Shown here one piece after another: positions 34,538 through 51,341 of a DNA stretch of 64,000 bases. The DNA is from Lysobacter solisilvae (GTDB lineage: Bacteria > Pseudomonadota > Gammaproteobacteria > Xanthomonadales > Xanthomonadaceae): positions 1,736,001-1,800,000 of the forward strand of contig NZ_CP071518.1 of assembly GCF_016613535.2 (NCBI RefSeq). Reading direction: 5' to 3'. The stretch's first letter is position 1, and each line of letters opens with the position of its first letter. Position numbers and translations under genes: made by a program. The notes under the pieces are model-generated. The model was not told the origin of the DNA and did no database searches. It saw only the letters and a program-made list of their open reading frames with translations.

Positions 34538-36865
34538 ATGAATTCCCACCCGATCCCTCCGACCGGTAGCGTCTCCATGGCTTCGCGTACCACCCTTTCG
34601 CGTCCCGCCTCGCGCCGCATCGATCTCAACACCCTGGCCCAGCGCGCGATCGCCAGCGCCGTCCTGCTCGCGCTTGCCGCCTGCAGCACCGCGCCGGTGG
34701 CCGACATCCGCCGCGACGCCAATCCCCAGGCCCTCAAGACCCAGGCCGGCACCTCCTCGGCCGATGAAGTCGTGCTGCCGGCCCGCGACGGCGTCCAACC
34801 CCTGCCCGACACCGAGCAGGGCCCCCGCCCGCAGATCCGCCGCGGCACCGGCCAGGTGATCAACCAGCAGGCCGCCTCCGCGCCGCCGCCCGCGCTGCCC
34901 ACCACCGGCGGCGGCGCCACCTTCAACTTCGAAGGCGAATCGCTGCACGCCGTGGTCAAGGCCATCCTGGGCGACATGCTCGGCCAGAACTACGTCATCG
35001 CCCCGGGCGTGCAGGGCACCGTCACCCTGGGCACGCCCAAGCCGGTCAGCCCGGCCGAGGCGCTCAACCTGCTGGAGATGGTCCTGGGCTGGAACAACGC
35101 CCGCCTGATCTACACCGGCGGCCGCTACAACGTCGTGCCCGCCGACCAGGCCCTGGCCAGCGGCGCCGTCGCCCCGCGCACCGGCGCGCCGTCGCTGGCG
35201 CGCGGCTACGAAGTCCGCGCCGTCCCGCTGCGCTACATCTCGGCCACCGAGATGGAGAAGGTGCTCAAGCCTTACGCGCGTCCCAACGCCGTGGTCAGCG
35301 TCGACAACGCCCGCAACATCATCAACCTGGCCGGCACCCGCGCCGAGCTCGAGAACTACCTGCGCACCGTCGAGATCTTCGACGTCGACTGGCTCTCGGG
35401 CATGTCGGTGGGCGTGTTCCCCCTGACCACGGGCAAGGCCAACAAGGTCGTCGCCGACCTGGAAAAGGTCTTCGGCGAATCGTCCAAGTCGCCCGTCGCC
35501 GGCATGTTCCGCTTCATGCCGCTGGACGGCGCCAACGCCGTGCTGGTGATCACACCGCAGGCCGCCTACCTGGACGACATCCAGGAATGGCTCGAGCGCA
35601 TCGACGGGGCCGGCGGCGACGTCCAGCTGTACTCCTACGAGCTCAAGTACATCAAGGCCAAGGACCTGGCCGATCGCCTGGCCGAAGTGTTCGGTGGCAG
35701 CCGCAGCGGCGGCAGCAGCAGCGGCAATGGCCAGGTGTCGATGATGCCGGGCCTGGAGTCGGTGGAACTGCGCGACACCGGCAACGGCAGCGCGGCCGAC
35801 ATCAAGGGCGGCAGCGGCGACAGCGGCAGCGGCGACAGCGGCATGTCGGGCACCGGCGAAGGCATGTCGCTGGGTGGCGGCAACGGCAACGCGGGCTCCG
35901 GCAACGGCACGGTCACGCTGGAAGTGAACGGCGACCGCGTCGGCGTGTCCGCCGTGCAGGAAACCAACTCGATCCTCGTGCGCAGCTCGCCCGGCGCTTG
36001 GAAGTCGATCAAGGATGTGATCGCCAAGCTCGACGTCATGCCCTTGCAGGTGCAGATCGAAGCGCAGGTCGTCGAGGTCACTCTGTCGGGTCACTTGAAA
36101 TACGGCGTCAGCTGGTTCTTCGAGAACGCGGTGGACGCCACGCGCGTCAATGGCGGCGCGGGACTTCCCGACGCCACCGCGCGGTCGTTCTGGGGAGACA
36201 TCGCCGGCTCCATTACCAACAACGGCATCGGCTGGACCTTCCTGGGTCGGAATGCAGCCGCCATCGTGAGCGCACTGGACCAGGTCGGGGACCTGCAGAC
36301 GCTGCAGGCGCCTTCGGTCCTGGTACGCAACAACGTCGAAGCGACGTTGAATGTCGGCGCCAGGATTCCAATCTCGTCGGTGACCTTCAATCCCAACCAG
36401 GGCACCGAGGGCACGGTCAGCCAGGTGCAATACCTGGATACCGGTACGATCCTGAAAGTCCGTCCCCGCGTAAGTCGCGACGGGATGGTCTTCATGGAAA
36501 TCGTCCAGGAGATCAGTACCCCGGGCATCGTCCCGGACGTCAACGGCAACGTCCGCATCGACTCGAGCAAGCTCAAGACCGAGGCCGCCGTGCAGAGCGG
36601 TGACACGATCATGCTGGCCGGCCTCATCAACGACTCCGCCAGCAAGGACGCCGACGGCGTGCCCGGGCTGAGCCGGATCCCGGTGATCGGCGCGCTGTTC
36701 GGCACCCAGGAAACCAATACGATCCGCAAGGAAACGGTCATCCTGATCACGCCCACCGTCGTGCGCAATCCGCAGGAAGCGCGCGACCTCACCGACGAAT
36801 ACGGCCAGCGCTTCCGCGCGATGCAGCCGCTGCAGCAGAAGCCGCGGGATCCGCGCAAGCAATAG
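34538..36865 (+). CDS. gspD: type II secretion secretin GspD (XpsD), lipoprotein type
   Basis: 775 residues. The signal has a lipobox (LLALAACSTAPV), as in Xanthomonas XpsD. N0 domain: GGATFNFEGESLHAVVKAIL; N1-N3 domains follow (YEVRAVPLRYISATEMEKVL; YELKYIKAKDLADRLAEVF). A long Gly/Ser/Asn linker sits inside N3 (about 390-455). The secretin core (VQIEAQVVEVTLSGHLKYGV; VPGLSRIPVIGALFGTQETN; KETVILITPTVVRN) completes the outer-membrane pore. It ends the operon. Confidence 0.96.
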   Translation: MNSHPIPPTGSVSMASRTTLSRPASRRIDLNTLAQRAIASAVLLALAACSTAPVADIRRDANPQALKTQAGTSSADEVVLPARDGVQPLPDTEQGPRPQIRRGTGQVINQQAASAPPPALPTTGGGATFNFEGESLHAVVKAILGDMLGQNYVIAPGVQGTVTLGTPKPVSPAEALNLLEMVLGWNNARLIYTGGRYNVVPADQALASGAVAPRTGAPSLARGYEVRAVPLRYISATEMEKVLKPYARPNAVVSVDNARNIINLAGTRAELENYLRTVEIFDVDWLSGMSVGVFPLTTGKANKVVADLEKVFGESSKSPVAGMFRFMPLDGANAVLVITPQAAYLDDIQEWLERIDGAGGDVQLYSYELKYIKAKDLADRLAEVFGGSRSGGSSSGNGQVSMMPGLESVELRDTGNGSAADIKGGSGDSGSGDSGMSGTGEGMSLGGGNGNAGSGNGTVTLEVNGDRVGVSAVQETNSILVRSSPGAWKSIKDVIAKLDVMPLQVQIEAQVVEVTLSGHLKYGVSWFFENAVDATRVNGGAGLPDATARSFWGDIAGSITNNGIGWTFLGRNAAAIVSALDQVGDLQTLQAPSVLVRNNVEATLNVGARIPISSVTFNPNQGTEGTVSQVQYLDTGTILKVRPRVSRDGMVFMEIVQEISTPGIVPDVNGNVRIDSSKLKTEAAVQSGDTIMLAGLINDSASKDADGVPGLSRIPVIGALFGTQETNTIRKETVILITPTVVRNPQEARDLTDEYGQRFRAMQPLQQKPRDPRKQ

Positions 36866-36873
36866 TGCCGCGA

Positions 36874-36901
36874 GGCCGGACACTCCCGCGAGTGTCCGGC
36901 C
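36874..36901 (+). terminator. hairpin after gspD
   Basis: A perfect 12-bp stem GGCCGGACACTC / GAGTGTCCGGCC with a 4-base loop, nine bases after the gspD stop. No T-tract follows, so it may act as a weak terminator or as a 3'-end stabiliser. Confidence 0.6.
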
Positions 36902-36993
36902 ATCGGCGCGCGTGTGCGCTGGCCTGGCTGGCTCTCCGGTGCTGCGCGCAGCATCGACAATCGCCAAGGGGCGCGGCATAACGGCGGTGGATT

Positions 36994-37299
36994 GTGGAAA
37001 AACTGGCGATCTTCTTGAGTGCTGTCGTTGTCTTGAGTGGCTGCACGTCCACCGCCCTGCGACGGTGCGACGAGTTGGCACTCGATTCCGGCTGGTCTCG
37101 CTCGCAACCGCCGGTCAATAGCCGGGAATTGCTTGGCCTGACGAAACCGCTAGCTCCAGAGTCTCGGCAAGCTTGGTACTCCAGCGGGGCTCAGTTTCGC
37201 GTGTGCAATTACCATGAGTGGAGCGATGTCGTGTATGACTTCACAAAAGTCGATGGAGCTTGGCGAGCTGAGGTCCATGCTTTTGGCTGGCGTGAGTAG
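36994..37299 (+). CDS. small lipoprotein at the head of the cassette array
   Basis: 101 residues from a GTG at 36994. Its signal MEKLAIFLSAVVVLSGC has a lipobox. The mature part (YSSGAQFRVCNYHEWSDVVY and DFTKVDGAWRAEVHAFGWRE) has no family I recognise. Its stop is followed by a weak attC-like half (CGCTTGGCTCAGGCGTCAG), so it may be the first, boundary-worn cassette. Base composition is clearly lower in GC than gspD before it. Confidence 0.65.
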   Translation: MEKLAIFLSAVVVLSGCTSTALRRCDELALDSGWSRSQPPVNSRELLGLTKPLAPESRQAWYSSGAQFRVCNYHEWSDVVYDFTKVDGAWRAEVHAFGWRE

Positions 37300-37332
37300 T
37301 TCGCCACGCTTGGCTCAGGCGTCAGCTGGCAC

Positions 37333-37713
37333 GTGAAGTATCCACTCACCATTGGTGCTCTTGTTCTCATTGGCCTCTATGTCATTGGCAGTGCCGCCTA
37401 TCAGGTGGCGAACAATGAGCAGTGCCCGGTCGCTGTTGAGTACACACTCCAGAAAGCGGACGAATCCAGTGCCGCCAGGCTCAAGCGAGAGACGGAGCGC
37501 TTCGCCAAGAAATCTGGTTACAGGTTCATGGGCTCGAGTTTGGAAGGGACGCTGACCACCTACGCAATAACCGACGAAGACCGCGCTATCGTTAACTTCA
37601 ATGACGCAACAGAACAGAACATAACGGTATCGTTCTACGACTGTAGGACGGGTGGGGATGGCTCGGCGACTGGCTATGCATGGCTTCAAGAAGTCGGAAG
37701 GAAGTACTTGTGA
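37333..37713 (+). CDS. cassette protein, membrane-anchored, unknown
   Basis: 126 residues from a GTG. One N-terminal span (YPLTIGALVLIGLYVIGSAA) is followed by a soluble domain with two cysteines (EQCPVAVEY, FYDCRTGG). No family is recognised. The attC at 37721 follows the stop by a few bases, as expected for a one-gene cassette. Confidence 0.7.
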   Translation: MKYPLTIGALVLIGLYVIGSAAYQVANNEQCPVAVEYTLQKADESSAARLKRETERFAKKSGYRFMGSSLEGTLTTYAITDEDRAIVNFNDATEQNITVSFYDCRTGGDGSATGYAWLQEVGRKYL

Positions 37714-37720
37714 CACCTAT

Positions 37721-37784
37721 GCCACCTAACAATTCTTTCAAGCCCAAGCCGCTTCGCGGCTCGGCTTGATTCAGCCGTCAGGCC
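37721..37784 (+). repeat. attC site
   Basis: Runs from CACCTAACAATTCTTTCAAG through the palindrome AAGCCGCTTCGCGGCTCGGCTT to GATTCAGCCGTCAGGC. R'' CCTAAC is good; the R' end (GTCAGGC) has one departure from GTTRRRY. Confidence 0.85.
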
Positions 37785-37788
37785 CTAG

Positions 37789-38241
37789 ATGAGCGATATC
37801 TTGATTCCAATCGTAGGCATTCTCGCCACCCTGCTGGGCCTGATGTTCCTCGTCGGCTGTTTCGTGCGGGTGGATTCGCAGCGCTTCCTGGAGCGCGCGG
37901 GCGGTGATCCAAGCAAGATCCACAGGCTGGAGACGCTCCAGGACGCGTGGTCCACGATTGGCAAGCTGCGGCAATTCGTCGCCTCGTCAGCTGCGCTTCT
38001 GATATTTGGCGTCGGCCTTCTTGCTGTCTGGGGTAATCCTGCTCTCGGTAAGTACTACTGGGTCGTCCCAGCCATACTGCTCGCCAACTTGGGTTTGATT
38101 CTGCTGGTTCGTAGGGATGCTGTGCGTTCGCTTAATCCACTCCTGCCCGGACACGCCGAAGTGCTAAAGGTCCTCAAGCAGAGCATCCGCATGTGCATTT
38201 CCTTCAGTGTCGTGTTCCTGGTGCTCGTAGCCAGGGGCTGA
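37789..38241 (+). CDS. cassette protein, four-span membrane protein
   Basis: 150 residues. Hydrophobic segments at about 5-25, 65-83, 91-108 and 133-148, with a charged loop (RVDSQRFLERAGGDPSKIHR) after the first, suggest an integral inner-membrane protein. No known family is recognised. It starts five bases after the preceding attC and ends inside the next. Confidence 0.72.
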   Translation: MSDILIPIVGILATLLGLMFLVGCFVRVDSQRFLERAGGDPSKIHRLETLQDAWSTIGKLRQFVASSAALLIFGVGLLAVWGNPALGKYYWVVPAILLANLGLILLVRRDAVRSLNPLLPGHAEVLKVLKQSIRMCISFSVVFLVLVARG

Positions 38242-38290
38242 CAATTCATTCGAGCCGAAGCCGCTTCGCGACTCGGCTGATTCGTTAGCG
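38237..38290 (+). repeat. attC site
   Basis: CTGACAATTCATTCGAGCCG, then the palindrome GAAGCCGCTTCGCGACTCGGC, ending GATTCGTTAGCG. GTTAG marks the R' crossover end. Confidence 0.88.
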
Positions 38291-38305
38291 ATTTCAGGGT
38301 TTGCC

Positions 38306-38686
38306 ATGTCTTCTGCCGAGTTCACGCGACTGCTGGCGCATCACCTTGGCGAGTACCCCTACATGCTGATTGTCACCGCAGGCCTGGTCCTTGCAGCTTT
38401 TCGCTGGAAACGTACCTGGCCAATGCGATTTGCAACCTTCGGTCTTGGGTTGGTGCTCGTGCACTCCTTGTTGCAAATGGGTTTGCGCCACCTTGGCAAC
38501 ACAAGCACTTATGGCCGCTACTTGGACGCCGACGCTCACGCTTGGCTTGCGCATTACGGTGGCCCAGGCGTTGAGTTCGTCGGCTGGTTGCTCGTTGTAG
38601 TGGCACTGCATCAGTTGCTTCGACCTGGCTCCTCGGCAGTGGCCAACAATTCATTCAAGTCAAAGCAGCTTCGTGGCTCAGCTTGA
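38306..38686 (+). CDS. cassette membrane protein with attC-encoded tail
   Basis: 126 residues with hydrophobic segments at about 18-32, 40-57 and 92-106. No family is recognised. The last 14 residues, ANNSFKSKQLRGSA, are translated from the attC itself, so this cassette has no stop before the recombination site. The same tail type recurs in two other cassettes here. Confidence 0.72.
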   Translation: MSSAEFTRLLAHHLGEYPYMLIVTAGLVLAAFRWKRTWPMRFATFGLGLVLVHSLLQMGLRHLGNTSTYGRYLDADAHAWLAHYGGPGVEFVGWLLVVVALHQLLRPGSSAVANNSFKSKQLRGSA

Positions 38687-38700
38687 TTCAGGCACTAGCG
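38641..38700 (+). repeat. attC site overlapping the preceding gene's 3' end
   Basis: GGCCAACAATTCATTCAAGT, then CAAAGCAGCTTCGTGGCTCAGCTTG and ATTCAGGCACTAGCG. It has the R''/L'' and L'/R' layout with a CACTAG variant of the R' end. Confidence 0.88.
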
Positions 38701-38715
38701 CCAAGGACCGATCCC

Positions 38716-39147
38716 ATGCAGTCAAAATTGAATCTGATGTTGCTTGTGTTGGCCGGTGCCATGACCACCGGATGCGCGTCGAGCCTGGTAACGAACGTAG
38801 GCACGCCGGTGTCGGCGTCCGCCTACAACAAGGCAATGGCAGACCAAGGGCGGGCGTACTACTGCGGGAATGGAAAATGCGACGTGCCGCCTTCGCTGAT
38901 CAGGGCAACCGCGCCTCACTATCCGGCAGGGGCGTTGGCAGCGGGCCGCACCGGGTGGGCGTCCGTGCTGTTTGACATAGAAGCCACCGGCGACATCTCG
39001 AACGTCCGACTGGAATCGGCGAGCGCCCCCGAGTTTGGCGAGGCGGCACTCGCGGCGATCCACACATGGAAGTACAAGCCAGCCAGGCTCAAGGGCAAGC
39101 CCGTCAAGATCGGCTCGGTGCGGCAGCCGATACCGTTCACGCTCTGA
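38716..39147 (+). CDS. lipoprotein with TonB C-terminal-like domain
   Basis: 143 residues from the ATG at 38716. The signal MQSKLNLMLLVLAGAMTTGC has a lipobox. The C-terminal 70 residues (TAPHYPAGALAAGRTGWASV; LFDIEATGDISNVRLESASA; EAALAAIHTWKYKPARLKGK) match the TonB C-terminal fold (P.YP..A...G..G.V.V.F.I...G...). As a free lipoprotein it cannot use ExbBD, so it may be a decoy or periplasmic binding module. Only 18 bp separate it from the next gene, with no attC. Confidence 0.78.
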   Translation: MQSKLNLMLLVLAGAMTTGCASSLVTNVGTPVSASAYNKAMADQGRAYYCGNGKCDVPPSLIRATAPHYPAGALAAGRTGWASVLFDIEATGDISNVRLESASAPEFGEAALAAIHTWKYKPARLKGKPVKIGSVRQPIPFTL

Positions 39148-39165
39148 AGTCCGGCTCTAGAACGC

Positions 39166-39522
39166 ATGTCAGTTTATTCAGTTGTGATGATCTCCAGCGC
39201 GGTGATCTGCTTTGCGTTTGTAGCGCTCGGCAGCTGGTTGCTGCGGTCCCTCGTGCGCATACGTGCAAGCAGGGCCTTGTTCGCGGCAGTTGTCGCGTTT
39301 CCGCTGTGGATTCCTTGCTCGGCAGCAATAGGCCAGCTTCTCGATGCCTATTACCATCCGCCCAGCGCCCTGGAAATCATCAGTGCCTTCGCCACCATAA
39401 ACGCCGTCGCGGTATCTGTGTTTGCAGTAGTCGCAGCCGTTTCCTTCTGGCTGGTGGTTCGCCAAATGAATCAGCGGGCCAACAATTCATTCAAGCCGGA
39501 TCCGCTTGGCGGCCGGGCATAG
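39166..39522 (+). CDS. cassette membrane protein with attC-encoded tail
   Basis: 118 residues, three hydrophobic segments (about 5-25, 37-56, 72-97), unknown family. The tail ANNSFKPDPLGGRA is read from the attC at 39476. Because no attC lies between it and the TonB-like gene, these two may be one two-gene cassette or the intervening site was deleted. Confidence 0.7.
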   Translation: MSVYSVVMISSAVICFAFVALGSWLLRSLVRIRASRALFAAVVAFPLWIPCSAAIGQLLDAYYHPPSALEIISAFATINAVAVSVFAVVAAVSFWLVVRQMNQRANNSFKPDPLGGRA

Positions 39523-39536
39523 TTCAGGCGTTAGAG
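39476..39536 (+). repeat. attC site
   Basis: GGGCCAACAATTCATTCAAG, CCGGATCCGCTTGGCGGCCGG and CATAGTTCAGGCGTTAGAG. It has the most complete R' end in the array (GTTAGAG) and overlaps the preceding stop codon. Confidence 0.9.
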
Positions 39537-39537
39537 G

Positions 39538-39978
39538 ATGGAAATGGCCGCACCGCAGATCAAGCGACCCATGCGTCTCTGGGTAGCTTCCCTGATGAAT
39601 ATCCTGGTCGGCTGCCTCAGCCTGGCCATGCTTGTCTTCCTCAAGACCTCGTCGCGCGTCCCAGCGGAGATACACCTCTCAGCGATTGCCACCGCAACGG
39701 CAGCAACCACCGCTGGCTTCCTCGTCTTCGCATCGGTAATGGCCCTGCTCGGCAAGCCACGCTGGCGCCGCCTGATGCTTCTGGCGGCCGTGAGCTTCTA
39801 CGGCAGCATCATGGTTCAGAATGCACTTCTTCTCGCTCAGGCGGAGGACAGCCTGGTTCCCGCTAGCAAGCTGACATCCCATCTAATCCGCAGTGGTCTC
39901 GAGGTCGCTATCAACCTCTGGGCGTTACTCAGCCCAAGAACGCGGCAGTACTTTGATCGTGAGTTGGCTGCGCCATGA
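39538..39978 (+). CDS. cassette protein, four-span membrane protein
   Basis: 146 residues (a second ATG two codons in is also possible). Spans at about 14-36, 47-70, 79-99 and 117-132. The sequence MRLWVASLMNILVGCLSLAM begins the first. No family is recognised. It starts one base after an attC and ends seven bases inside the next. Confidence 0.7.
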   Translation: MEMAAPQIKRPMRLWVASLMNILVGCLSLAMLVFLKTSSRVPAEIHLSAIATATAATTAGFLVFASVMALLGKPRWRRLMLLAAVSFYGSIMVQNALLLAQAEDSLVPASKLTSHLIRSGLEVAINLWALLSPRTRQYFDRELAAP

Positions 39979-40032
39979 AAAACAGTTCATGCCAAGGACG
40001 CTGTGCGGCTCGGCTCAACTCAGGCATTGGAC
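39971..40032 (+). repeat. degenerate attC site
   Basis: AAAAACAGTTCATGCCAAGG, ACGCTGTGCGGCTCGGCT and CAACTCAGGCATTGGAC. The palindrome and flanks are recognisable but the R' end is ATTGGAC instead of GTTRRRY. Confidence 0.7.
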
Positions 40033-40059
40033 CTAACAAGAAGCCTCATCGGAAGTGAC

Positions 40060-40680
40060 GTGACTCGATCAACGGTACTCATTGCAATGGTGGTCTGCCT
40101 GGGATGTGCGCACACGGCTGCCGAGGATCACACCCAGACAAGTGACGTCTCCGAAATCTATGCGCAGTTCCTTGGCGACTGGACAGGCAAGGACAAGGAC
40201 CCGCTGAGTGTTTCGCTTTCGGCCGACGCCCCCTCCGCGGACGAAATGAAGGAAATCGCCGAGTGCGTGGACAACGGCGCAAGCACGCATTGGGTGCGCC
40301 CCGAGCCAATTGCCGACCTCAGTGGCCTCGTTGGGAAGCTTCCCTATGTGCGTATGGTTGATCCCAGCCAATGGAGTCCGCAGGATCCAGGTGAGCTCAT
40401 CGCGAGAGGGCAGTCCATTGAGTCAGCCGTCGAGAGTGGCTACGCCCACGGGTTGATGACATTTTCTGCCATAACTTTCGATCAGTCTGGCCAGAAGGCC
40501 GCCTTTGCTTATTCATTTGATTGCGGCCGCCTGTGCGGGCATGGCGGTACGGTCATCTTTGTTCGGACGCAAGGCGGTTGGGTCGAGAGCGCTAAGCAGT
40601 GCGGCGCTTGGATCTCGCACCATCCCGATGTCAGGCCCGGCAATTCATTCAAGACGTCGCCGCTTCGCAACTCGGCTTGA
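40060..40680 (+). CDS. cassette lipoprotein with attC-encoded tail
   Basis: 206 residues from a GTG at 40060 (GGAAG eight bases upstream), giving a lipoprotein signal TRSTVLIAMVVCLGC. The mature domain includes DWTGKDKDPLSVSL, ITFDQSGQKAAFAYSFDCGR and GGTVIFVRTQGGW. It resembles small periplasmic proteins of unknown role. The C-terminus PGNSFKTSPLRNSA comes from the attC at 40634. Confidence 0.7.
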   Translation: MTRSTVLIAMVVCLGCAHTAAEDHTQTSDVSEIYAQFLGDWTGKDKDPLSVSLSADAPSADEMKEIAECVDNGASTHWVRPEPIADLSGLVGKLPYVRMVDPSQWSPQDPGELIARGQSIESAVESGYAHGLMTFSAITFDQSGQKAAFAYSFDCGRLCGHGGTVIFVRTQGGWVESAKQCGAWISHHPDVRPGNSFKTSPLRNSA

Positions 40681-40682
40681 CC
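40634..40682 (+). repeat. attC site, 3' end worn
   Basis: GGCCCGGCAATTCATTCAAG then ACGTCGCCGCTTCGCAACTCGGC and TTGACCCC. The R' GTTRRRY end is missing, so it may no longer recombine. Confidence 0.78.
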
Positions 40683-40717
40683 CCTCGAAGCTCCCCCATC
40701 AAGGAAAGGAATCCCAC

Positions 40718-41524
40718 ATGGCTCGACTCTTGCTGCTTGCCCTGCTAGCCGTGTCATTCAATGCGAGCGCCATCGTCATTCGGGACGACGTGGACGACTC
40801 GAAGTATCGGGTTGCGGCATCTGATTTTCCCGCGCTCGTTGATCTGCCTGGCGAGGGGCATGGCGTGCTGATTGCCCCGCAGTGGGTGATCACCGCCGCC
40901 CACGCCGTCACGTGGCAACCCGGGATCAAGCAGGTCACCATCAATGGAACACCCAGGGACGTTGAGCGGCTCGAGATCCATCCAGGCTACAAAAAGCCGC
41001 CGCAGGACCTGCTTGACCAGGCGCTCGCCACTTGGGATTGGACGCTTTTCAGGGTGCTGCTCTCGTCATCGGATGACGTGGCGCTTCTCAAGCTGGCGCA
41101 ACCGGTGGCTGACGTTTCCCCTGTCGCGATCCGCAACGGCGAAGACGAGTTCGGCCAGGTCGTCATGTTCCTTGGAAAAGGCGCTACGGGCACCGGCGTG
41201 ACCGGGTACGACTTCAGTGACCCTCACCGCATCGAGCTTCGCCGGGCGTACAACCGGATCACCAGCGCCCATGGCCGCTGGCTCTGCTACATGTTCGATC
41301 AGCCGTCGGAAGCGCTGCCGCTCGAGGGCGGGTCGGGGAGCGGCGACAGCGGCGGGCCCATCCTTGTCCAGGCGGGCCAGGACTGGTTGTTGACCGGACT
41401 GACGTCGTGGGCCGATCCTCAAAGCACCCTAAGGACGCCCGGGCGGTATGGCCAGGTCAGTTGCAATGTCCGCCTGAGCCACTACAGGGATTGGATTGAA
41501 AGCGTCAGCGCCGCGCAGCCATGA
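40718..41524 (+). CDS. secreted trypsin-like (S1) serine protease
   Basis: 268 residues, strong SD (AAGGAAAGG) before ATG 40718; signal peptide MARLLLLALLAVSFNASA. The catalytic triad is visible: His62 in WVITAAHAV, Asp in DDVALLKLAQPV, and Ser in GSGSGDSGGPILV, with the S1 C-terminal pattern (WLLTGLTSWA). No propeptide beyond a short acidic stretch (RDDVDDSK) is seen. It is unusually large and well defined for a cassette gene. It sits between two worn attC sites, so it may be a cassette or a later insertion. Confidence 0.88.
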   Translation: MARLLLLALLAVSFNASAIVIRDDVDDSKYRVAASDFPALVDLPGEGHGVLIAPQWVITAAHAVTWQPGIKQVTINGTPRDVERLEIHPGYKKPPQDLLDQALATWDWTLFRVLLSSSDDVALLKLAQPVADVSPVAIRNGEDEFGQVVMFLGKGATGTGVTGYDFSDPHRIELRRAYNRITSAHGRWLCYMFDQPSEALPLEGGSGSGDSGGPILVQAGQDWLLTGLTSWADPQSTLRTPGRYGQVSCNVRLSHYRDWIESVSAAQP

Positions 41525-41568
41525 GCGGGGCTGACCAAGCCGCTTCCTGGCCCGGCTTGATTCCAAGA
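41518..41568 (+). repeat. degenerate attC remnant
   Basis: GCCATGAGCGGGGCTGACCA, then AGCCGCTTCCTGGCCCGGCTTG and ATTCCAAGAAC. The central palindrome survives; both simple ends are lost, the 3' side replaced by the REP at 41569. Confidence 0.6.
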
Positions 41569-41590
41569 ACGGGGTCAGAGACCCTTATCT
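41569..41590 (+). repeat. REP of the RAYT type inside the cassette array
   Basis: ACGGGGTCAGAGACC followed by CTTATCT differs by one base from the left terminal REP of the RAYT element at 49784-49805, including preceding AAGA. This shows that the local transposase's REP has been copied into an attC junction. Confidence 0.85.
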
Positions 41591-41650
41591 ACGCTAGTCC
41601 CCACGACTTGGGCCCTCGCACATCGCGGCGCCTGAATTTCAGGAGTTCAG

Positions 41651-42058
41651 GTGTCAGCCCGAATGGACAGTCGACAGGAATTTCTAACCGAGTTTCTTTC
41701 CGCGCTCGGCGCGAGGGAGATCCGGAACCTGTGTGTCACACCAGCGTCCGTTTCCGGCACGGTGGTCTACGATCCGAGCGATCCGGAAGAGCAGCAGGAC
41801 TTCCGTTGGCCTGTTCCGGAGAACGCAGCACCTTCGCCGGCAGTGGTCCGCCTGGCCGGCCTCATTCGCCGGGCTCGCCTGCTCCACGGTGACAGGTTGA
41901 CGCCATCGCGCCAGGAGCTTCTTGCACGCTTCAACGCTGGCCAGGATTGGGTGTGCCCGCCCGATCAGTTCACGGCTATCCTTGAGGAGCTTCTGCAAGT
42001 CCAGGTGCCGATGCTTGATGAGGGCGTCGAGAGTGACTACTACTTCATGCACGAGTAG
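41651..42058 (+). CDS. cassette protein, soluble, unknown
   Basis: 135 residues from a GTG at 41651 (CAGGAG five bases before); ATG at 41663 is the alternative. No signal peptide or span. It is acidic, with segments FLTEFLSALGAREIRNLCVT, RRARLLHGDRLTPSRQELLA and WVCPPDQFTAILEELLQVQV. No family is recognised. Confidence 0.68.
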   Translation: MSARMDSRQEFLTEFLSALGAREIRNLCVTPASVSGTVVYDPSDPEEQQDFRWPVPENAAPSPAVVRLAGLIRRARLLHGDRLTPSRQELLARFNAGQDWVCPPDQFTAILEELLQVQVPMLDEGVESDYYFMHE

Positions 42059-42059
42059 T

Positions 42060-42118
42060 GGCATGGGATTTTCGAAACCCAATGGCTGCGCGACCGGCTG
42101 CGGGCTAATCAGGCGTAA
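42060..42118 (+). repeat. degenerate attC remnant
   Basis: Ends in GGCTGCGCGACCGGCTGCGG then GCTAATCAGGCGTAAGGCG, which resembles the L'/R' half (CAGGCGTTAGGC with one T lost). The 5' half is not recognisable. Confidence 0.55.
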
Positions 42119-42124
42119 GGCGAC

Positions 42125-42646
42125 ATGACACATTCCCGGACTCTGACGTGCGTTCTACTCGCCATCTCCCTGGCCGCCACCTCCCTTGCCTCCGCCGAAG
42201 ACCTCGCCGGAAGCCGTCTCACCTATTCCGGGCTGGGGCCGCTGAGGATTGGCATGACCCTCCAGGACGCAAAGCGAGTCGGCCTGGAAATTGCCGTCAT
42301 TGAGCAGTTCTCGGATCTCGAGACGTGCGGTTTGGCCAGGGTGGTCGGCGGCGACGACATCCTGCTGCTGTTTGAAGACAATCGCATCGCCAGGATCGAG
42401 TCGCATCGCGACAGGTTCTCGACCTTCAGTGGCGCCAAGGTGGGTGATTCCGAGGCTCGGATCAGTGAGATCTATGGCGCCAGGCTCAAGGTCGAGCCGC
42501 ACCAGTACGACCCGGATGGTCACTATCTGATCGTCACTTCGAGTGATGGGAAATCCGCGATGGTTTTTGAGACGGACGGGAATCGGGTGACTGACATGAG
42601 GGCTGGCCTGCTGCCGGCGGTGCGGTATGTCGAGCACTGCCTGTGA
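42125..42646 (+). CDS. cassette protein, secreted, unknown
   Basis: 173 residues with a signal peptide ending SLASA. The mature part (LTYSGLGPLRIGMTLQDAKR; GDDILLLFEDNRIARIESHR; ARISEIYGARLKVEPHQYDP) resembles small periplasmic proteins with the GPLRIGMT..EA pattern found across Xanthomonadaceae. Role unknown. An attC follows the stop. Confidence 0.72.
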   Translation: MTHSRTLTCVLLAISLAATSLASAEDLAGSRLTYSGLGPLRIGMTLQDAKRVGLEIAVIEQFSDLETCGLARVVGGDDILLLFEDNRIARIESHRDRFSTFSGAKVGDSEARISEIYGARLKVEPHQYDPDGHYLIVTSSDGKSAMVFETDGNRVTDMRAGLLPAVRYVEHCL

Positions 42647-42656
42647 CCCACCGTCA

Positions 42657-42720
42657 GGTGCCGGAGCCTTCATTCAAGCCCAGGCCGCTTCGGCGTCCGG
42701 GCTGATCCAGGTCCTTGTTC
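42657..42720 (+). repeat. attC site
   Basis: GTGCCGGAGCCTTCATTCAAG, CCCAGGCCGCTTCGGCGTCC and GGGCTGATCCAGGTCCTTG. TTCATTCAAG and the palindrome are preserved; both ends are variant. Confidence 0.72.
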
Positions 42721-42722
42721 GG

Positions 42723-43141
42723 ATGTTGAGAGTCCTCGCGATATCGGTATCGTTCTGTTGACCGGCTGCTCCCGGCAAGCTGATGGCTTTCCGATCTCCA
42801 AAGCCAGTGGACCTTGCGAGAGCGAGGTGTCCAAGCCCCAGCGGATCTCCATAAGTGCCTTGCTCGCCCACCCGGAGCGCCATGAGGGCAAGCCGGTGAC
42901 GGTCGTTGGCTTCTACCATGGCTCGTTCGAGCACTCCGCAATCTACCTGGCGCAGGCGGACTTTCAGCACCATGTGCGCGCCCATGGAATCTGGGTGGCC
43001 AACCGCATTCCGGACTCGCTGAGTGATCGGTACGTCGAGCTCGACGGAATCTTTACGTCCTCACGAGGCCATCTTGGCCAGTGGCCGGGCACCATTTGCG
43101 GCATCAGCAGGGCAGTTGCCGCGGGGGCAGATGCGCCCTGA
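42723..43141 (+). pseudogene. cassette lipoprotein with frameshifted signal peptide
   Basis: An ATG at 42723 encodes MLRVLAISVSF and then stops (TGT TGA). In the next frame the sense goes on as LTGCSRQADG, exactly the lipobox a lipoprotein signal should have, followed by ISISALLAHPERHEGKPVTV and VGFYHGSFEHSAIYLAQADF, an OB-like domain. Restoring one base near 42753-42757 (TTCTG to TTCCTG) rejoins them. A TTG at 42758 could give a 127-residue unsecreted product. Confidence 0.75.
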
Positions 43142-43195
43142 CACTTCATTCAAATCGAAGCCGCTTCCAGACTCGGCCAATCGGGGCGTCTGTCG
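43139..43195 (+). repeat. attC site
   Basis: CTGACACTTCATTCAAATCG, AAGCCGCTTCCAGACTCGGC and CAATCGGGGCGTCTG. A clear 5' half; the 3' end is GCGTCTG. Confidence 0.78.
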
Positions 43196-43205
43196 CCGGG
43201 ATTGC

Positions 43206-43262
43206 GGCCGAACTATTCAATAAGCTGAGCGGCTTCGCGACGCCGCTTGGTTGAGGTGTTCC
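43206..43262 (+). repeat. attC-like site directly after another
   Basis: GGCCGAACTATTCAATAAGC, TGAGCGGCTTCGCGACGCCGC and TTGGTTGAGGTGTT. It starts only about 10 bases after the previous site, leaving an empty cassette. Confidence 0.7.
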
Positions 43263-43273
43263 AAGGAGACGTC

Positions 43274-43726
43274 ATGACGGTCAAGCGCATGGATAACGTA
43301 GGCATCGTGGTGGAAGACATCGGTGCCGCCATCGAGTTCTTCGTGGAGCTCGGCCTGACCCTCGAAGGCCGCATGCCCATCGAAGGCGAATGGGCCGGCC
43401 GGGTCACCGGACTGCGCGGCCAGCGCGTGGAAATCGCCATGACGCGCACCCCCGACGTTCACAGCCGTCTCGAACTCTCGCGCTTCGACGCGCCCGCCAT
43501 TGCTTCGGATCACCGCACGGACCCAGTGAACGCACTGGGCTACCTGCGCGCCATGTTCGCCGTCGAGGACATCGACGACACTCTCGCCCGGCTCACGAAG
43601 CTCGGTGCGTCGCTGGTCGGTGAAGTCGTCGATTACGAAGGGATCTATCGGCTCTGCTACATCCGTGGTCCGGAGGGAGTGCTGATCGGTCTTGCCCAAG
43701 AGATTGCGCAGCAGACTTCCCGATGA
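43274..43726 (+). CDS. VOC-fold (glyoxalase/bleomycin-resistance type) protein
   Basis: 150 residues from the ATG at 43274 (AGGAG six bases upstream). Paired beta-alpha-beta modules are visible: MDNVGIVVEDIGAAIEFFVE with GLTLEGR, and GYLRAMFAVEDIDDTLARLT with GASLVGEV. The C-terminal strand RLCYIRGPEGVLIGLAQEI carries the usual metal-ligand Glu. His or Gln ligands are not obvious, so substrate is open; family members include lyases, dioxygenases and drug-binding proteins. It is probably the last cassette of the array. Confidence 0.85.
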   Translation: MTVKRMDNVGIVVEDIGAAIEFFVELGLTLEGRMPIEGEWAGRVTGLRGQRVEIAMTRTPDVHSRLELSRFDAPAIASDHRTDPVNALGYLRAMFAVEDIDDTLARLTKLGASLVGEVVDYEGIYRLCYIRGPEGVLIGLAQEIAQQTSR

Positions 43727-43739
43727 GCACGGAACAAAA

Positions 43740-43830
43740 CGGGATGGAGATCAGCTCCGTCCCTCTATTCCCCAGGCTCGTAGGAAGGGCATCTGATCGA
43801 CCGGGACATACCGGTCTCTCACCCGGTTCC
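43740..43830 (+). repeat. decayed copy of the RAYT element's right flank
   Basis: GGGATGGAG..CAGC, CCCAGG(C)TCGTAGGAA(G)GGCA and ACATACCGGTCTCTCACCCGG align in order with 50517-50634 (CCCAGGATCGTAGGAATGGC, AGATAACGGTCTCTGACCCC). The transposase gene itself is gone. The remaining 170 bp before the Rhs gene show nothing recognisable. Confidence 0.7.
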
Positions 43831-44004
43831 TATTGCTCACGATCACCGATCACTGTCGAGATCTGCCGCCGCCAGGGTTGGGCCTGCCAAATGAACTGGC
43901 CAGCAGCCGGTGCGGCTGCAAATATCTGAAGTGCATCCCAAACCCAGAAGGCCCTGTAACATGGGCGAGCGGGGCGGCAGGGGGCCGCCCGAGTTGGGGA
44001 ATTC

Positions 44005-47000
44005 ATGAAGTTCTTGTCCGGCGCGGCTAACCGCGGCCGCGTGCTGTGCACGCTTTTCGCAATCTCGGCCACCTTGGCCTTAGCTCCCAAGCCCGCTCAG
44101 GCCCAGATGAGTTGGGGTGAGGAGTACGCCCGTCGAGTACGCGCGACGGAACAGGTCTCCCCATTGGGCGATGACGCCTTCGGCGACAGCATCAGCTTGT
44201 ATAACGGCACCGTCTCTTTCAAGGCGACCGACATCTCCCTGCCGGGCAACAACGCCCTGCCGGTTCGGCTGAGCCGCTACTACGATCCGCAAGACGTGTC
44301 GCTGCCGCATTTTCTGGGCACCTGGGACCTGGATATTCCGCACATCAGCGCAGTGGCGCCGAGCGGACACAACGGCGGCTTTCCTGTGCCGCAAAGCTAT
44401 ACGTCGTCAGGTGTGGAATGGCAGAACGAGACGTACTGGAGCGGCAATCGCTTGAACATGGGCGGGAGTGGCAGTGATCTGCTGACCGGCGCGCTGAACG
44501 ACCCGAAGCGTTCATTCCCCAGCTTCCTGACCAGCGATGCAGTGCACACCAAAGACGGCTGGTATTTCTCGGCCATCCCGGTCCGTAACGGCGCGGGCTA
44601 CGGATACAAGGGATACGCGCCCGACGGCACCATCTATACGTTCGACTGGATGCTCGAACGCGACTATTCGGCGATCAGCCATCCCACGCGCACCATCAAT
44701 GGCTCCGCGCCCATCCTGTACCGCAAGAAGATCGTGGTGTTCGTCAGCAAGATCGAGGACCGCTTCGGTAATTGGGTCAAGTACGAGTGGGACGAGGATC
44801 AAGGTGAAGAGGGCCGCCTCAACCGCATCCATTCCAGCGACGGGCGCGAGATCGTGCTCACCATGGTGCTCAAGGGCACGACCAACTACGACCGCAAGAT
44901 CTGGGGCCTGACGTCGGCAACGGCTGCAGGACGCACCTGGTCGTATGACGGCGAGAACGTCACGAATCCTGATCTCACAAGGTGGACGTACAGGCGAGAG
45001 GGGCATCGCCTCGACACGATTTCGTACGAGCGGATCGATCCGCCCGTGGGCACGGGCGGCACTGGCGGCTACATCATCGAGGAGGAGGTCGCCTGCTCGC
45101 CGGCCCAGAAGTTCGAAGCGGGGCAACTGACGAAGTACTTCGTGACGCATCCCTCCGGCGCACAGGCCGAATACACCCTTAAACCCATGCGACACGGGCG
45201 GACGAATGTCCCCTTCTTCTGCGACGGTGGAAATCCGCAGGCCGAGCAGATCGGCGGGCGCAACGGGTACGCGACCTACCACGACGTGTGGTCGCTGCAG
45301 AGCAAGAAGGTCACGGGCGTGGGCCTGGACTCGATGGACTATGCCTATTCCTACGAGGGTCTGGCTCAAGGGTATGAGCCGCCGGAAAACCCTAATTGGT
45401 TTCCGTACAACGAGCCGGGCTGGATCGCGGCGAACGTCCGACCCCTTCCCAATCGCAAAACCGTCACGGTTGTCCAGCCTGACGGAACCAAGCAGATTCA
45501 TACCTTTGGCAAGGACTACGGCGTCGACGATGGGTTCCTGCTCCAGGTGCAGACCCTCAAGGACAACGTGGTCTACCGGACGGTGACCCATGGCTACGTC
45601 ACCGAGGCCGAAGCACTGGCGCTGCCGTTTCCCGAGAACATGGGCTTCAGCGGTGTGCGCTTCGCCGACAAATTGCCGTACGCCAACCGGCCGATGAAGT
45701 CCACTACGATCGTCCAGGACTCCCAGAGCTGGACGTCGGCAGTTGCGTCCACCTGCAACGGCAACAACACCCTCTGCTTTGACCGCCTCGCTCGATCCAC
45801 CGTCGAGATGAAGTACAACTCGATGGGCTCGACCCGAAGCGACGCGACCGAGTACTACGACCGCACAGACCTGTGGGTGCTGGGGCAGGTGCTACGCACT
45901 TTGAGTGTGGCCGGCGGAAAGACCATCGAGAATGTGCAGACCGACTACGACACCGGCAATGCACTGCCGTTGGCTACGTACGGGCCTTGCCTTTTTCCCG
46001 ATGGCGCTTCTTCCTGCGCAGGCAAGCGGACCGGCCAGATGACCTATCGGTTCGATCCCAAGGGCGTCGAAGGTAGCCAGAATGCGACGCTGGCCACCGT
46101 GGCCGACGGCCGCGGAAACGTCACCACACTCACGGAATGGATGCGCGGTATCCCGCAGAAAATTCAGCACCCGGCGACACCGGGCGCGAGCGCCATCGAT
46201 TCCATCGAGCAGGCCCTCGTGAATGCCGATGGCACATTGGCCTGGGTGGAAGACGAGCTGGATAACCGCACCTGCTACACGTACGTCGCCGGACGCCTGG
46301 ACAAGGTGACCTACCCGTCGGAAGCCACGGCCGGGACGTGTGACGAGAGCAAGTGGCTGTCCACGACATTCAAGCTCGAGCTGTCGACAACGGCGGCCTA
46401 TGGGCTGCCCGCCGGACACTGGCGCGCCATACGATCAGCACGGGCAATGCGCGCAAGATCGTCTATCTGGATACGTTCTGGCGCCCCGTCGTCGAGGAGG
46501 CCTTCGACAACGCCACCGCGTCGACCACGCGCAGCGTCAGCGCAAAGCGCTACGACCTCGGCGGCCAGCCGGTTTTCCAGTCCTACCCGCAGCGCACCCT
46601 ATCGAATTATTCGACGGTCACGACGGGCACACGCACCACTTACGACGCCCTGGACCGCGTGGTCCGAGTGGACATGGATTCGGAGCTTCCGCCGGAACCG
46701 CCCGCCACGCAAGGCGCCGTCCTGACCACGCTCACCGACTACTCCAACGGTGAAGTGAAGGTCACCAATCCGCGCAACGTCGTCACCACCACGCGGTTCA
46801 TGAGCTTCGACAAGCCGTCCACCGAGATGCCGGTCGAGATCCAACATGCGGAAGGCGTGGTCACCGTCATCGGGCGCGATCCCTTCGGCCTGCCCACGTC
46901 CCTTACCCGCAAGAACGCAGCCGGCACCGTGTCGTCGACCCGTTGGTATTCCTACGACAGTTACCGGCGCCTTTGCCGCACTCTGGAGCCGGAAACCGGG

Positions 47001-49089
47001 TCCACGCTGACGGGATGGGATGACAATGGCAACCCGGCCTGGAGTGCGTCCGGACTGTCGTCCTCCACGCCCTGCGATTTCACCGGCACGGCTGCCACAA
47101 CGCTCGCGCGCAAGGTCAGCCGCGAGTACGACGCCCGTAACCGCGTGATCGGCCTCAGCTTCCCCGACGGCCGCGGCAACCAGGCCTGGACCTATACCGC
47201 CGATGGCCTGCCGGCCACGATCACCACCTACAACGGGCAGGGCAACACCGAGCCGGTGATCAACGCCTACGCCTACAACGGCCGTCGGCAGTTGGCCGGC
47301 GAGAGCGTCAGCCAGCCCGGCCGCTACACCTGGAACCTGGGCTACGGCTACAACAGCTACGGCTATCAGTCGGTCAGCCTGACCCAGCCCAGCGGAGAAG
47401 TGATCAGCTTCGCGCCCAATGCGCTGGGCCAGACCATGCAGGTGACCGGGTTGGTGAACTACGCCACCGGCGTGAGTTACCACCCCAACGGCGCGATCGC
47501 ACAGTTCACGTATGGCAACGGCATCGTGCACACGATGACGCAGAACGTCCGCGGGCTGCCGTCCCTCAGTGCCGACCAGCGGCCATCGGACAGCAAGTGG
47601 GTGCACCGCGATGCGTATGAATATGACCAAGTCGGCAATGTCATGGCCATCATGGATTCGGCCACCGATCGCATCGATGCGATGGGCAGCGGCGACCGCA
47701 GCATGTCCTACGACGGACTGGATCGCCTGCTGACGGCGACTTCGTCGTGGTTCAACGGCGCCAGCACCGGGAACACTGCGCGCTACACCTACGATGTCCT
47801 GGACAATCTGACTCGGGCGACCCTTCGGGGCCGGGACGAGTACTACTGCTACGACGGGCGCCAACAACTGACCAGCGTCCGTACCGGGGGGTGCCCGGGC
47901 GGTGGTGCCATGACCCATGTCTTGGAGTACGGCATCCAAGGCAACTTGTCGAACAAGGATGGCGTGGCTTACATGTTCGATTTCGGAAACCGACTCCGTT
48001 CGGTGTCGGGCAAGGAGAGCTACCGCTACGACGGCCACGGCCGGCGCGTTCAGGCCACCTCGACCGCGGGCCTGGGTGACATCCTGTCTCAGTACGGACA
48101 GGACGGCGTGCTGCGCTATCAGCAGGATTTCCGGCGTGATGTGGTGTTCAACCACGTTTACCTGGCCGGCAGCCTGATCGCCACGCGCGAGACGGTGATG
48201 GGCACTTCGACTAACATCATCAAGTACCAGCACACCGATGCGCTGGGGAGCCCCGTGGTGATCACCGATGCGGGCGGAAACATTATCGAACGCAGCAAAT
48301 TTGAGCCGTACGGGTTGCTGATTAACCGGCCGCTGCAGAATGGGCCGGGGTATACGGGGCATGTGAGCGACAAGGAGACAGGGCTCTCGTACATGCAGCA
48401 GCGGTATTACGACCCGGGCATCGGAAGGATGCTCTCGGTCGATCCTGTTACCGCAAATCCGAATACAGGCGCGAAGTTCAATCGCTATGCGTACGGACTC
48501 AACAACCCTTATCGGTTTACTGATCCGGATGGGCGAGACGATCTCGACATGTTCGCTCTAACCGACCCGCTTCGCGTTCCAGCGCTGCGCTTTAGCATGC
48601 CTGGTTGGTTTACCGTAATGGGTCACGGTGGTTATGCGGGCACTACTGAATATGCCTTAAGGAATGACGCGGGCAAGCTGGTTCCGTTTACGGGACCGCG
48701 ACTCAATGCCGAATATACTGCCAATGCCATTAAGCAGGCGGGGTTTGAAAATTGGAAGTATGGCGGCGTGTTTTTTGGGGCACTGCCAAGGCGGAACTAT
48801 TGCAACTGAGGTAGCGCAAAGACTGAATGCTCCTGTAATGGCTACAACCGGATTTGTTTATACCCAAGGCAACAACAAGGGCGGGGACATCACTTACCGG
48901 GCATACAACGCGGAGAATAGCGATGGCAGCCCCGCTGGTGGTCGAACTACCTTCAATGTCTATAGTCCCAATGGTGCTGTGAGCGCCAGGTACTCTGAAA
49001 TTGTTCAGAAGAAGGATGGTTCGGTTTGGGGTAGACAGGCAGTGGCTGGGACAGGTTCTCGAATTCCAAAGATGGAGAAACTCAAGTGA
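44005..49089 (+). pseudogene. Rhs/YD-repeat protein 1, broken by two frameshifts
   Basis: The signal peptide (LFAISATLALAPKPAQA) is followed by the same N-terminal domain as Rhs 2 at 53598 (MSWGEEYARRVRATEQ; FKATDISLPGNNALPVRL). YD repeats end in the Rhs core (YMQQRYYDPGIGRMLSVDP). Frame 1 runs to about 46421. There TGGCGC-GC-CAT has two extra bases compared with GHWRRTVRTG of Rhs 2, and the sense moves to another frame until 48770. A T6-G4 run (48771-48780) then shifts it again, from KYGGVFFG to HCQGGTIATEVAQRL and RLNAPVMATTGFVYTQ, the variable C-terminal toxin region, ending 49089. Without repair, 906 residues could be made from the first part. Confidence 0.85.
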
Positions 49090-49660: not shown

Positions 49661-49783
49661 ACTTTGTGCATGAGTTGAAGGATTCGCGATCGGCTTGCGC
49701 CAGCACCGCTCGATGACTTGCATGTCGAACTGCTGGCGTGCGCGCGGTAGTTGGGTGATGCGATCCATCTGCGTTGCCGAAGA

Positions 49784-49805
49784 ACGGGGTCAGAGACCGT
49801 TATCT
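49784..49805. repeat. left terminal REP of the RAYT element
   Basis: ACGGGGTCAGAGACCGTTAT, ending CT, is the exact inverse of 50609-50630. The RAYT stop codon and its last codons lie inside it. Confidence 0.92.
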
Positions 49806-50506
49806 ATGGCCCCGCGATGACCTGCCTTGCAGGGCCTATGGGCCGGCCGAACCTGGAGTGGTCGTCCAAGGATCGCTTCAATCCGCGCTTGGAACCGCGC
49901 AGTGCCTAGCGCCTTCTGCTGTTGGGTGTATTGCCGGATCTCTTCGGCCCGCCCCGAGGCGAGCTCGCTGTCGAACAGCGCGCGGTAGGCTTCGTGCAGT
50001 CCGGGTCCCTGGGGCCCGAGTGCGAGATATTCGGGATGTGGCCTGATCAGGCGATCGGGCTCGCCCCAGGCGTTGCAGCGATGACTGGACCAGCGGTAGT
50101 CCGCGGGACTTTGCACCATGCCCGCGCGCACTGGATTTAGCTCGATGTAGCGATAGCACGCCAGCGCGTATTCCTGGCTATCCACCAGGCAGGATTTGTA
50201 CCGTCCTTCCCAGAGCGCGCCGCTTCGCCGGTACCGCGCGTTGATATAGGTCACGTAGTTGCGACCGAGCGTCTGCATCACCCGACTGCCGGCTTTTTCT
50301 GCGGCAGGTGTCAGCAGCAGATGCACATGGTTGGTCATCAGCACGTAGGCATGCACGGCGCACGGATGTTTCAGGCACGCCTCGTGGAGCAGCGCCAGGT
50401 ATGCCAGGTAGTCATCGTCGCGGTAGAAGCAGGGTTGACGATCATTGCCGCGCTGCACGATGTGCTGTGGAATGCCGGCGATGTCCGGGCGAGGTGGTCG
50501 TGGCAT
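49790..50506 (-). CDS. REP-associated tyrosine transposase (RAYT, Y1 family)
   Basis: 238 residues. The N-terminus PRPPRPDIAGIPQHIVQRGN is typical of RAYTs. The HUH pair is in LMTNHVHLLLTP. The nucleophile Tyr region is GRNYVTYINARYRRSGALWE, with GRYKSCLVDSQEYALACYRY and IELNPVRAGMVQSPADYRWS after it. Such single-copy transposases bind and mobilise or maintain REP sequences and do not usually move as IS elements. The gene lies between perfect inverted 22-bp REPs (49784 and 50609), and its C-terminal codons read into the left one. A related REP is at 41569 and a decayed end at 43771. Confidence 0.92.
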   Translation of the reverse strand: MPRPPRPDIAGIPQHIVQRGNDRQPCFYRDDDYLAYLALLHEACLKHPCAVHAYVLMTNHVHLLLTPAAEKAGSRVMQTLGRNYVTYINARYRRSGALWEGRYKSCLVDSQEYALACYRYIELNPVRAGMVQSPADYRWSSHRCNAWGEPDRLIRPHPEYLALGPQGPGLHEAYRALFDSELASGRAEEIRQYTQQQKALGTARFQARIEAILGRPLQVRPAHRPCKAGHRGAIDNGL

Positions 50507-50608
50507 GCTGAAGCCCCAGGGATGGAGTCGTCAGCCTGCAGCTACTCATGCAGTGAATCGTCGGGTGCCGGCTCCCAGGATCGTAGGAATGGCACCTGTT
50601 CAACTGTG

Positions 50609-50630
50609 AGATAACGGTCTCTGACCCCGT
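50609..50630. repeat. right terminal REP of the RAYT element
   Basis: AGATAACGGTCTCTGACCCC followed by GT is the perfect inverted partner of 49784-49805, about 100 bp upstream of the RAYT start. Confidence 0.92.
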
Positions 50631-50695
50631 TTTTCAGACAACGAGGCATTAGCTGACCAGTGGGTAGGCGAAGTATGGCCAGGAGTGAGCTTCTA

Positions 50696-51268: not shown

Positions 51269-51341
51269 GCCAGCCCCGCAATGACAGGTGGTGGGCCTGC
51301 CCCGTGCGCCCCACACCCCATCTAAGTCAAACTCCGGCCAC

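Follow-up and report, generated by a model that had tools for sequence, protein, structure and literature searches.

Clusters of attC sites lacking an integrase (CALINs) are a defined class of element; in a survey of them (PMC9024848; this and the two further studies cited are drawn on here in part) they numbered 2961, close to the 2760 complete integrons counted. In Xanthomonas, CALINs lie apart from the integrase gene, intI, in about half of the genomes, and among species with more than 10 genomes they occupy seven chromosomal loci (PMC12444791). Xanthomonadales-like attC sites, those of Lysobacter included, have also been described (PMC8352920). CALIN origins have so far been argued mainly from surveys. 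Here we analysed a 64,000-nucleotide stretch of Lysobacter solisilvae DNA (the window; bases 1736001-1800000 of a single-contig genome of 3.93 Mb), in which 13 small open reading frames (ORFs; c0-c12), interspersed with attC sites, lie downstream of gspD, the secretin gene of the type II secretion system (T2SS). We found that this locus is very probably a CALIN, namely an old, mostly frozen satellite cassette array from a Xanthomonadales-type cassette pool, inserted between gspD and a glycosyltransferase gene (GT1) and decaying since.

By definition a CALIN has at least two attC sites and no integrase nearby; the gspD locus has 8 scored sites, against the almost 6 per CALIN of the survey (PMC9024848), and its nearest intI is about 445 kb away. 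It differs from a complete integron in that an intI-adjacent array is absent, intI and array standing together at 1.33 Mb. In kind it is the same as known CALINs; what sets this host apart is that an intact integron and eight further clusters are present besides it. Among the Xanthomonas loci away from ilvD named in the passages drawn on (PMC12444791), gspD does not figure, and here the host is Lysobacter-type, with nine clusters in one genome. Nor is the gspD locus described in the passages covered from the literature on Lysobacter integrons and attC sites. With the Xanthomonadales-like attC clade (PMC8352920) the window shares the taxon, its sites being placed there by resemblance only. The locus is a new example of an established class of element. 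Most useful in this work is the graded series of satellites: an intact integrase, an array of about 61 sites and nine clusters of graded decay make integration in trans and array breakage comparable within one strain. The locus also shows that cassette genes, including one for a protease with attC-linked relatives in four other genera, can come to lie next to core secretion genes.

attC sites downstream of gspD

An initial annotation, made from the sequence alone, had proposed about twelve attC-like sites of the Xanthomonas type here, separating single small genes on the same strand. To score them we used a covariance model, R3 (60 positions, 19 pairs, 28 rows), whose rows all come from the intI-linked array and include none of the window sites; a model with automatic structure (R1, 8 pairs) was set aside, and the searches used R3 only. 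Training candidates were picked by a sequence word (up to 3 mismatches) found at 52 places in the intI array, 45 of which were given an R' end by rule (31 distinct sequences) while the 7 without one were dropped; 27 of the 31, plus one repeated with three flanking bases, made up the rows. Because of this choice by word and the omission of incomplete sites, R3 is biased towards well-kept sites. With filters off over the whole 64 kb, R3 found 8 attC sites, all on the plus strand between 37724 and 43194 (E≤8.5e-4, 65 to 20 bits). Elsewhere in the window, apart from a 16.6-bit match to site 1 in antisense and a 12.9-bit remnant at 43207, no match exceeded 12.1 bits. Matches to the R'' word (up to 3 mismatches) numbered 5, where 0.01 were expected. 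The array is thus borne out by independent matches: where the annotation had allowed for a covariance model scoring none of its sites as attC, eight sites do score. The type of site fits as well, the same model matching 126 of 149 genomes of the family.

The best preserved site, site 1 (37724-37783, 65.3 bits), has GTC rather than GTT at R'. Site 2 (38236-38290, 53.1 bits) keeps the R' GTT, site 4 (39477-39536, 55.4 bits) keeps both R' GTT and R'' AAC, and between them lies site 3 (38641-38700, 47.0 bits). The other four are degenerate: site 5 (39972-40032, 28.2 bits), site 6 (40635-40691, 19.7 bits), site 7 (42660-42719, 29.8 bits) and site 8 (43136-43194, 23.4 bits). Local alignment of the R3 consensus to each gene interval, compared with 1523 same-length window pieces from outside the array, added three plus-strand remnants: the truncated attC of c8 (41537-41563; alignment above all 1523 pieces), one between c9 and c10 (42073-42121; alignment 31, equalled by 2 of 1523) and one back to back with site 8 (43207-43264; R3 12.9 bits, E 0.19), whose alignment (43207-43260) exceeds all 1523 and reaches a GTT. 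A 3' remnant after c0 (37300-37325, plus strand) is doubtful, with a weak alignment of 21 equalled by 38 of 1523 pieces and an R3 E of 6.1. Twelve sites are therefore reached only by counting fragments (8 clear, 3 remnants, 1 doubtful). We saw no attC in the c4-c5 interval, where the alignment score was equalled by 458 of the 1523 background pieces, or after c12 (43720-43900), where alignment was at background level. Rfam at the gathering threshold gave zero matches in the window and equally in the intI array, and we did not take this as evidence against attC. The arrangement of single small genes on one strand largely holds, all 13 ORFs (36994-43726) being on the plus strand; the exceptions are the interval shared by c4 and c5, the pair of adjoining sites that separates c11 from c12, and the end of c12, after which no site was seen.

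Erosion of the sites

We folded the bottom strand of all sites against 60 dinucleotide shuffles each, and ten window stretches and two intI-array controls against 200. A hairpin at z≤-2 was found in 2 of the 8 window sites, compared with 42 of the 63 intI-array sites and 4 of 7 in a cluster at 3.16 Mb. These two are site 1 (z -5.1) and site 7 (-2.2); the 200-shuffle run agreed, giving -4.2 and -2.3, with -5.5 and -6.5 for the controls. The single-strand folding that the annotation had asked for is thus clear in only two of the eight sites. Read at fixed positions of the match, R' GTT is kept by 2 of 8 window sites, 43 of 63 sites of the intI array and 7 of 7 at 3.16 Mb, and R'' AAC by 3 of 8 and 40 of 63 sites of the window and the intI array, respectively. 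Within the intI array R3 scores drop from the proximal to the distal end, and the window sites resemble the distal end.

With most of its attC sites eroded, the array appears mostly frozen, and it would now be largely immobile. Any remaining mobility would be expected between 38236 and 39477, because only the two scored sites there keep the R' GTT; they bracket c3-c5. Outside the scored set, the alignment of the remnant at 43207 reaches a GTT too. In the sequence of events we propose, an IntI would have delivered the cassettes, joined at the gspD-GT1 junction; the loss of R-box motifs and hairpins seen in the sites would have followed, and with the sites eroded the cassette genes would now be inherited mostly vertically.

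An intact integrase and eight further clusters

The window holds no intI, as the annotation had stated: the tyrosine recombinase at 3962-4915 is XerD-like (366.8 bits, cut-off 329.6), and its TIGR02249 score, 102.6, is below the cut-off of 265. That cut-off is exceeded once in the genome, outside the window, by an intact intI at 1327755-1328696, about 445 kb from the array; it scores 496.7 bits, covers positions 1-314 of the 315 in the model and contains no stop. The array is therefore integrase-less as a locus, and the genome is not. The adjacent array of about 61 sites extends over 1329-1364 kb; 63 matches fall there, two of them weak and distal. Two LexA-box patterns had no match in the stretch from intI to the first attC.

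In the whole-genome run with R3 (150 of 3679 candidates scored), 105 matches had E≤1. The intI array accounts for 63 of them, the window for 8 and eight other clusters (at 1.55, 2.05, 2.59, 2.63, 3.16, 3.33, 3.35 and 3.88 Mb) for 33; the last is a 22-base partial match. At E≤0.1 there were 99, including 38 in the nine clusters. By the contig strand of their sites, five clusters are plus and four minus; the skews of the stretches examined for replication orientation were small and mixed. Site quality ranges from a consensus-perfect site of 91.1 bits at 3.16 Mb to heavily eroded clusters. The one congener compared (G002, single contig) had 113 R3 matches at E≤0.1 (150 of 3824 candidates scored). 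Of these, 101 belong to its intI array; the remaining 12 lie elsewhere and include two clusters of two or more sites, fewer than the nine found here. Across the family, intI was above cut-off in 101 of 149 genomes, and R3 matches at E≤1e-4 were present in the 126 genomes mentioned above (up to 36 candidates scored per genome, stricter filters).

We noted three further features of these integrons. The freshest satellite, at 3164600-3167388, about 1.8 Mb from intI, combines one consensus-perfect attC with an R' GTT in every one of its 7 sites. Two family genomes, G049 with at least 36 attC matches (the scoring cap) and G017 with 32, have no intI above cut-off. Finally, a 354-bp cassette with no evident gene and no Rfam match occurs in eleven copies, 94-100% identical, in the intI array (1329670-1337303); gene-less cassettes with promoter activity have reportedly been found in Vibrionaceae.

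Relatives of four cassette genes lie beside attC in other genomes

Four of the 13 proteins (c7, c8, c10 and c12) were searched for in 345 family genomes, counts including the host's own, and the loci of the best non-self matches were scored with R3, about 1.5 kb each side. Relatives of c8, found in 70 of the 345 genomes at E≤1e-15, gave the clearest result: in 7 of 9 non-self loci, spanning four genera and encoding proteins 75-81% identical, an attC lies about 10 bases past the gene match. Of 6 non-self loci examined for c7, 3 have an attC at the gene's 3' end; one of these sites is weak (21 bits), and some of the relatives concerned belong to other genera. Relatives of c12 (26 of 345 genomes at E≤1e-15) have an attC no more than 120 bp away in 3 of the 9 non-self loci. 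For c10 the figure is 2 of 11, one of the two sitting inside the congener's intI array. All four genes searched thus have attC-linked relatives in other genera.

An insertion between gspD and GT1

The left host flank, gspD (34538-36865, plus strand; TIGR02517 514.5 bits), lies directly 5' of the array, as the placement next to the T2SS operon had implied. The right flank, GT1 (51288-52181, plus strand), is 75% identical to the congener's GT1. Among 207 confirmed gspD relatives the best 80 were compared. In 70 of them the start of GT1 is no more than 478 bp from the end of the gspD match; in one it lies at 1.25 kb, and nine had no GT1 match (four with GT2 close, four with nothing recognised in 3-10 kb, one with only 499 bp left). 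The window keeps the GT1-GT2 order, but at 51288 and 52263, and from this displacement relative to the other genomes we estimate that about 14.4 kb has been inserted. No R3 match at E≤0.1 was found in the 80 gspD loci with default filters, and with filters off two congener stretches likewise gave none, their best match reaching 13.0 bits (E 0.11). GC content is 0.56-0.64 across the array compared with 0.70-0.75 at 30.0-36.0 kb; it is also lower at the end of gspD (0.65) and in the Rhs region (0.61-0.66). A comparison of gspD with plasmids gave no match.

In addition to the cassettes the insertion contains an Rhs gene broken across two reading frames (ORFs at 44005-46725 and 46353-48809), small ORFs, a RAYT gene and one more ORF. 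The RAYT gene (49790-50506, minus strand) scores 72.1 bits with REP_Tyr_transpos, below the cut-off of 80, and 49.7 with Y1_Tnp, above the cut-off of 23, and has inverted terminal repeats at 49772-49805 and 50609-50643. Copies of its termini occur within the array, both on the plus strand: 27 bp at 41565-41591, 96% identical to 49780-49806, abut the truncated attC of c8, and a degenerate stretch at 43771-43828, 81% identical over 58 bp to 50574-50631, lies where the attC of c12 would be expected. Separately, the broken Rhs gene and a second Rhs gene at 53598-58634 flank the glycosyltransferase pair, and the two are 55% identical over 794 residues.

Origin of the array

Several results weigh against an old cassette array delivered from a shared pool. 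Four of the 8 sites score below 30 bits, and six fold no better than shuffles at z≤-2. Nine of the 11 c10 relatives have no attC nearby, and c10 has a chromosomal paralogue in its own genome at 1577450-1577875; c10 thus looks like a member of a mainly chromosomal family. The plus strand between gspD and c0 (36866-36993) contains no GTT. Since it also holds the Rhs gene, RAYT and other ORFs, the insertion need not be a single event. Lastly, when compared with 1325 ORFs from the host's own intI array and satellites, the window cassettes showed no relatives, so that, judged by these ORFs, descent of the window array from the intI array would seem unsupported. We nevertheless hold the CALIN reading to be very probable; how the array came to lie at gspD is far less certain.

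The origin we rate highest, although we would stop a little short of calling it probable, is seeding in trans, in which, on one or more occasions, IntI recombined cassettes into an attG-like genomic site close to gspD, with the other satellites arising in the same way. An intact intI in the same genome is consistent with this, as are nine clusters on both strands that grade from a perfect site to heavy erosion. Integration at attG was reportedly described by Loot et al. in 2024. It is also reported in the Xanthomonas study (PMC12444791), according to which, however, CALIN positions in Xanthomonas are conserved, unlike the broad attG spread in E. coli. The missing GTT next to gspD and the absence of any cassette common to the window and the host's own array also speak against seeding in trans.

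Somewhat doubtful, but still to be taken seriously, is that rearrangement detached the array from a longer integron array, or that it was imported as a block together with the Rhs/RAYT segment. The mixed content of the 14.4 kb insertion suggests such an event, and the intI array shows similar site decay distally. Yet gspD, GT1 and GT2 keep their ancestral order and strand, so that no inversion breakpoint is seen, and nine separate clusters would require many rearrangements. That the sites are chance hairpins or REP repeats misread as attC is hardly credible: RAYT and its repeats are indeed nearby and six of the 8 sites lack a clear fold advantage over shuffles, but the window background outside the array peaks at 12 bits and, a strong objection, relatives of c8, c7 and c12 carry attC at the same place after the gene.

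Returning to integration in trans, a broader version can be put forward, although we regard it as rather less likely than its opposite: the host's own active IntI may have laid down the whole graded series at attG-like sites, from the near-pristine cluster at 3.16 Mb to the fossil in the window. Integration in trans followed by attC erosion, perhaps aided in the window by the RAYT-type repeat next to the truncated attC, might then regularly turn cassette genes into fixed chromosomal genes.

The cassette genes

Pfam searches covered all 13 proteins, NCBIfam three (c4, c8 and c10) and PADLOC ten. Pfam agreed with the annotation on a protease and a VOC protein and added a TonB_C protein. These are c8 (40718-41524), a trypsin-like serine protease with a signal-like start (PF00089, 3.8e-13); c12 (43274-43726), the last cassette, VOC/glyoxalase-like (PF13669/PF00903); and c4 (38716-39147), a TonB C-terminal domain protein with a lipoprotein-like start (PF03544, 7.7e-15). 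The first and least certain cassette, c0 (36994-37299), is a 101-amino-acid (aa) lipoprotein-like ORF by a lipobox heuristic, with only the weak attC behind it. Hydropathy makes membrane-protein-like ORFs of c2 (37789-38241, 150 aa), c3 (38306-38686, 126 aa, its C-terminal tail extending into attC), c5 (39166-39522, 118 aa) and c6 (39538-39978, 146 aa). No Pfam match was found for c1 (37333-37713, 126 aa, with a hydrophobic N-terminal segment), c9 (41651-42058, 135 aa) or c11 (42737-43141, read as 134 aa, the start codon being uncertain, with a later alternative at 42758). Two are exported-looking orphans, c7 (40060-40680, 206 aa; relatives in 7 of 345 genomes) and c10 (42125-42646, 173 aa; relatives in 223 of 345).

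PADLOC gave a single weak match (c6, E 0.0021) among the ten proteins submitted, and promoter and terminator scans did no better than shuffles (1 promoter and 4 terminators, where shuffles gave 1.7 and 6.0). A crude hydropathy rule flags 11 of the 13 window ORFs, c12 surely wrongly, versus 22 of 60 own-array intervals; in 24 of those 60 the longest ORF is on the opposite strand. We do not claim an excess of exported or membrane proteins. In a large protein search c7 found itself and two others. The protease c8 matched 7 plasmid records, each below 60% identity, and among solved structures gave general trypsin-fold matches only. An apparent match of c5 to the host's own array and satellites was discounted, as it disappeared once the attC-encoded tail was left out. 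This tail (NSFK...) is common to c3, c5 and c7 (38641-38686, 39477-39522 and 40635-40680) because these ORFs read into their attC sites.

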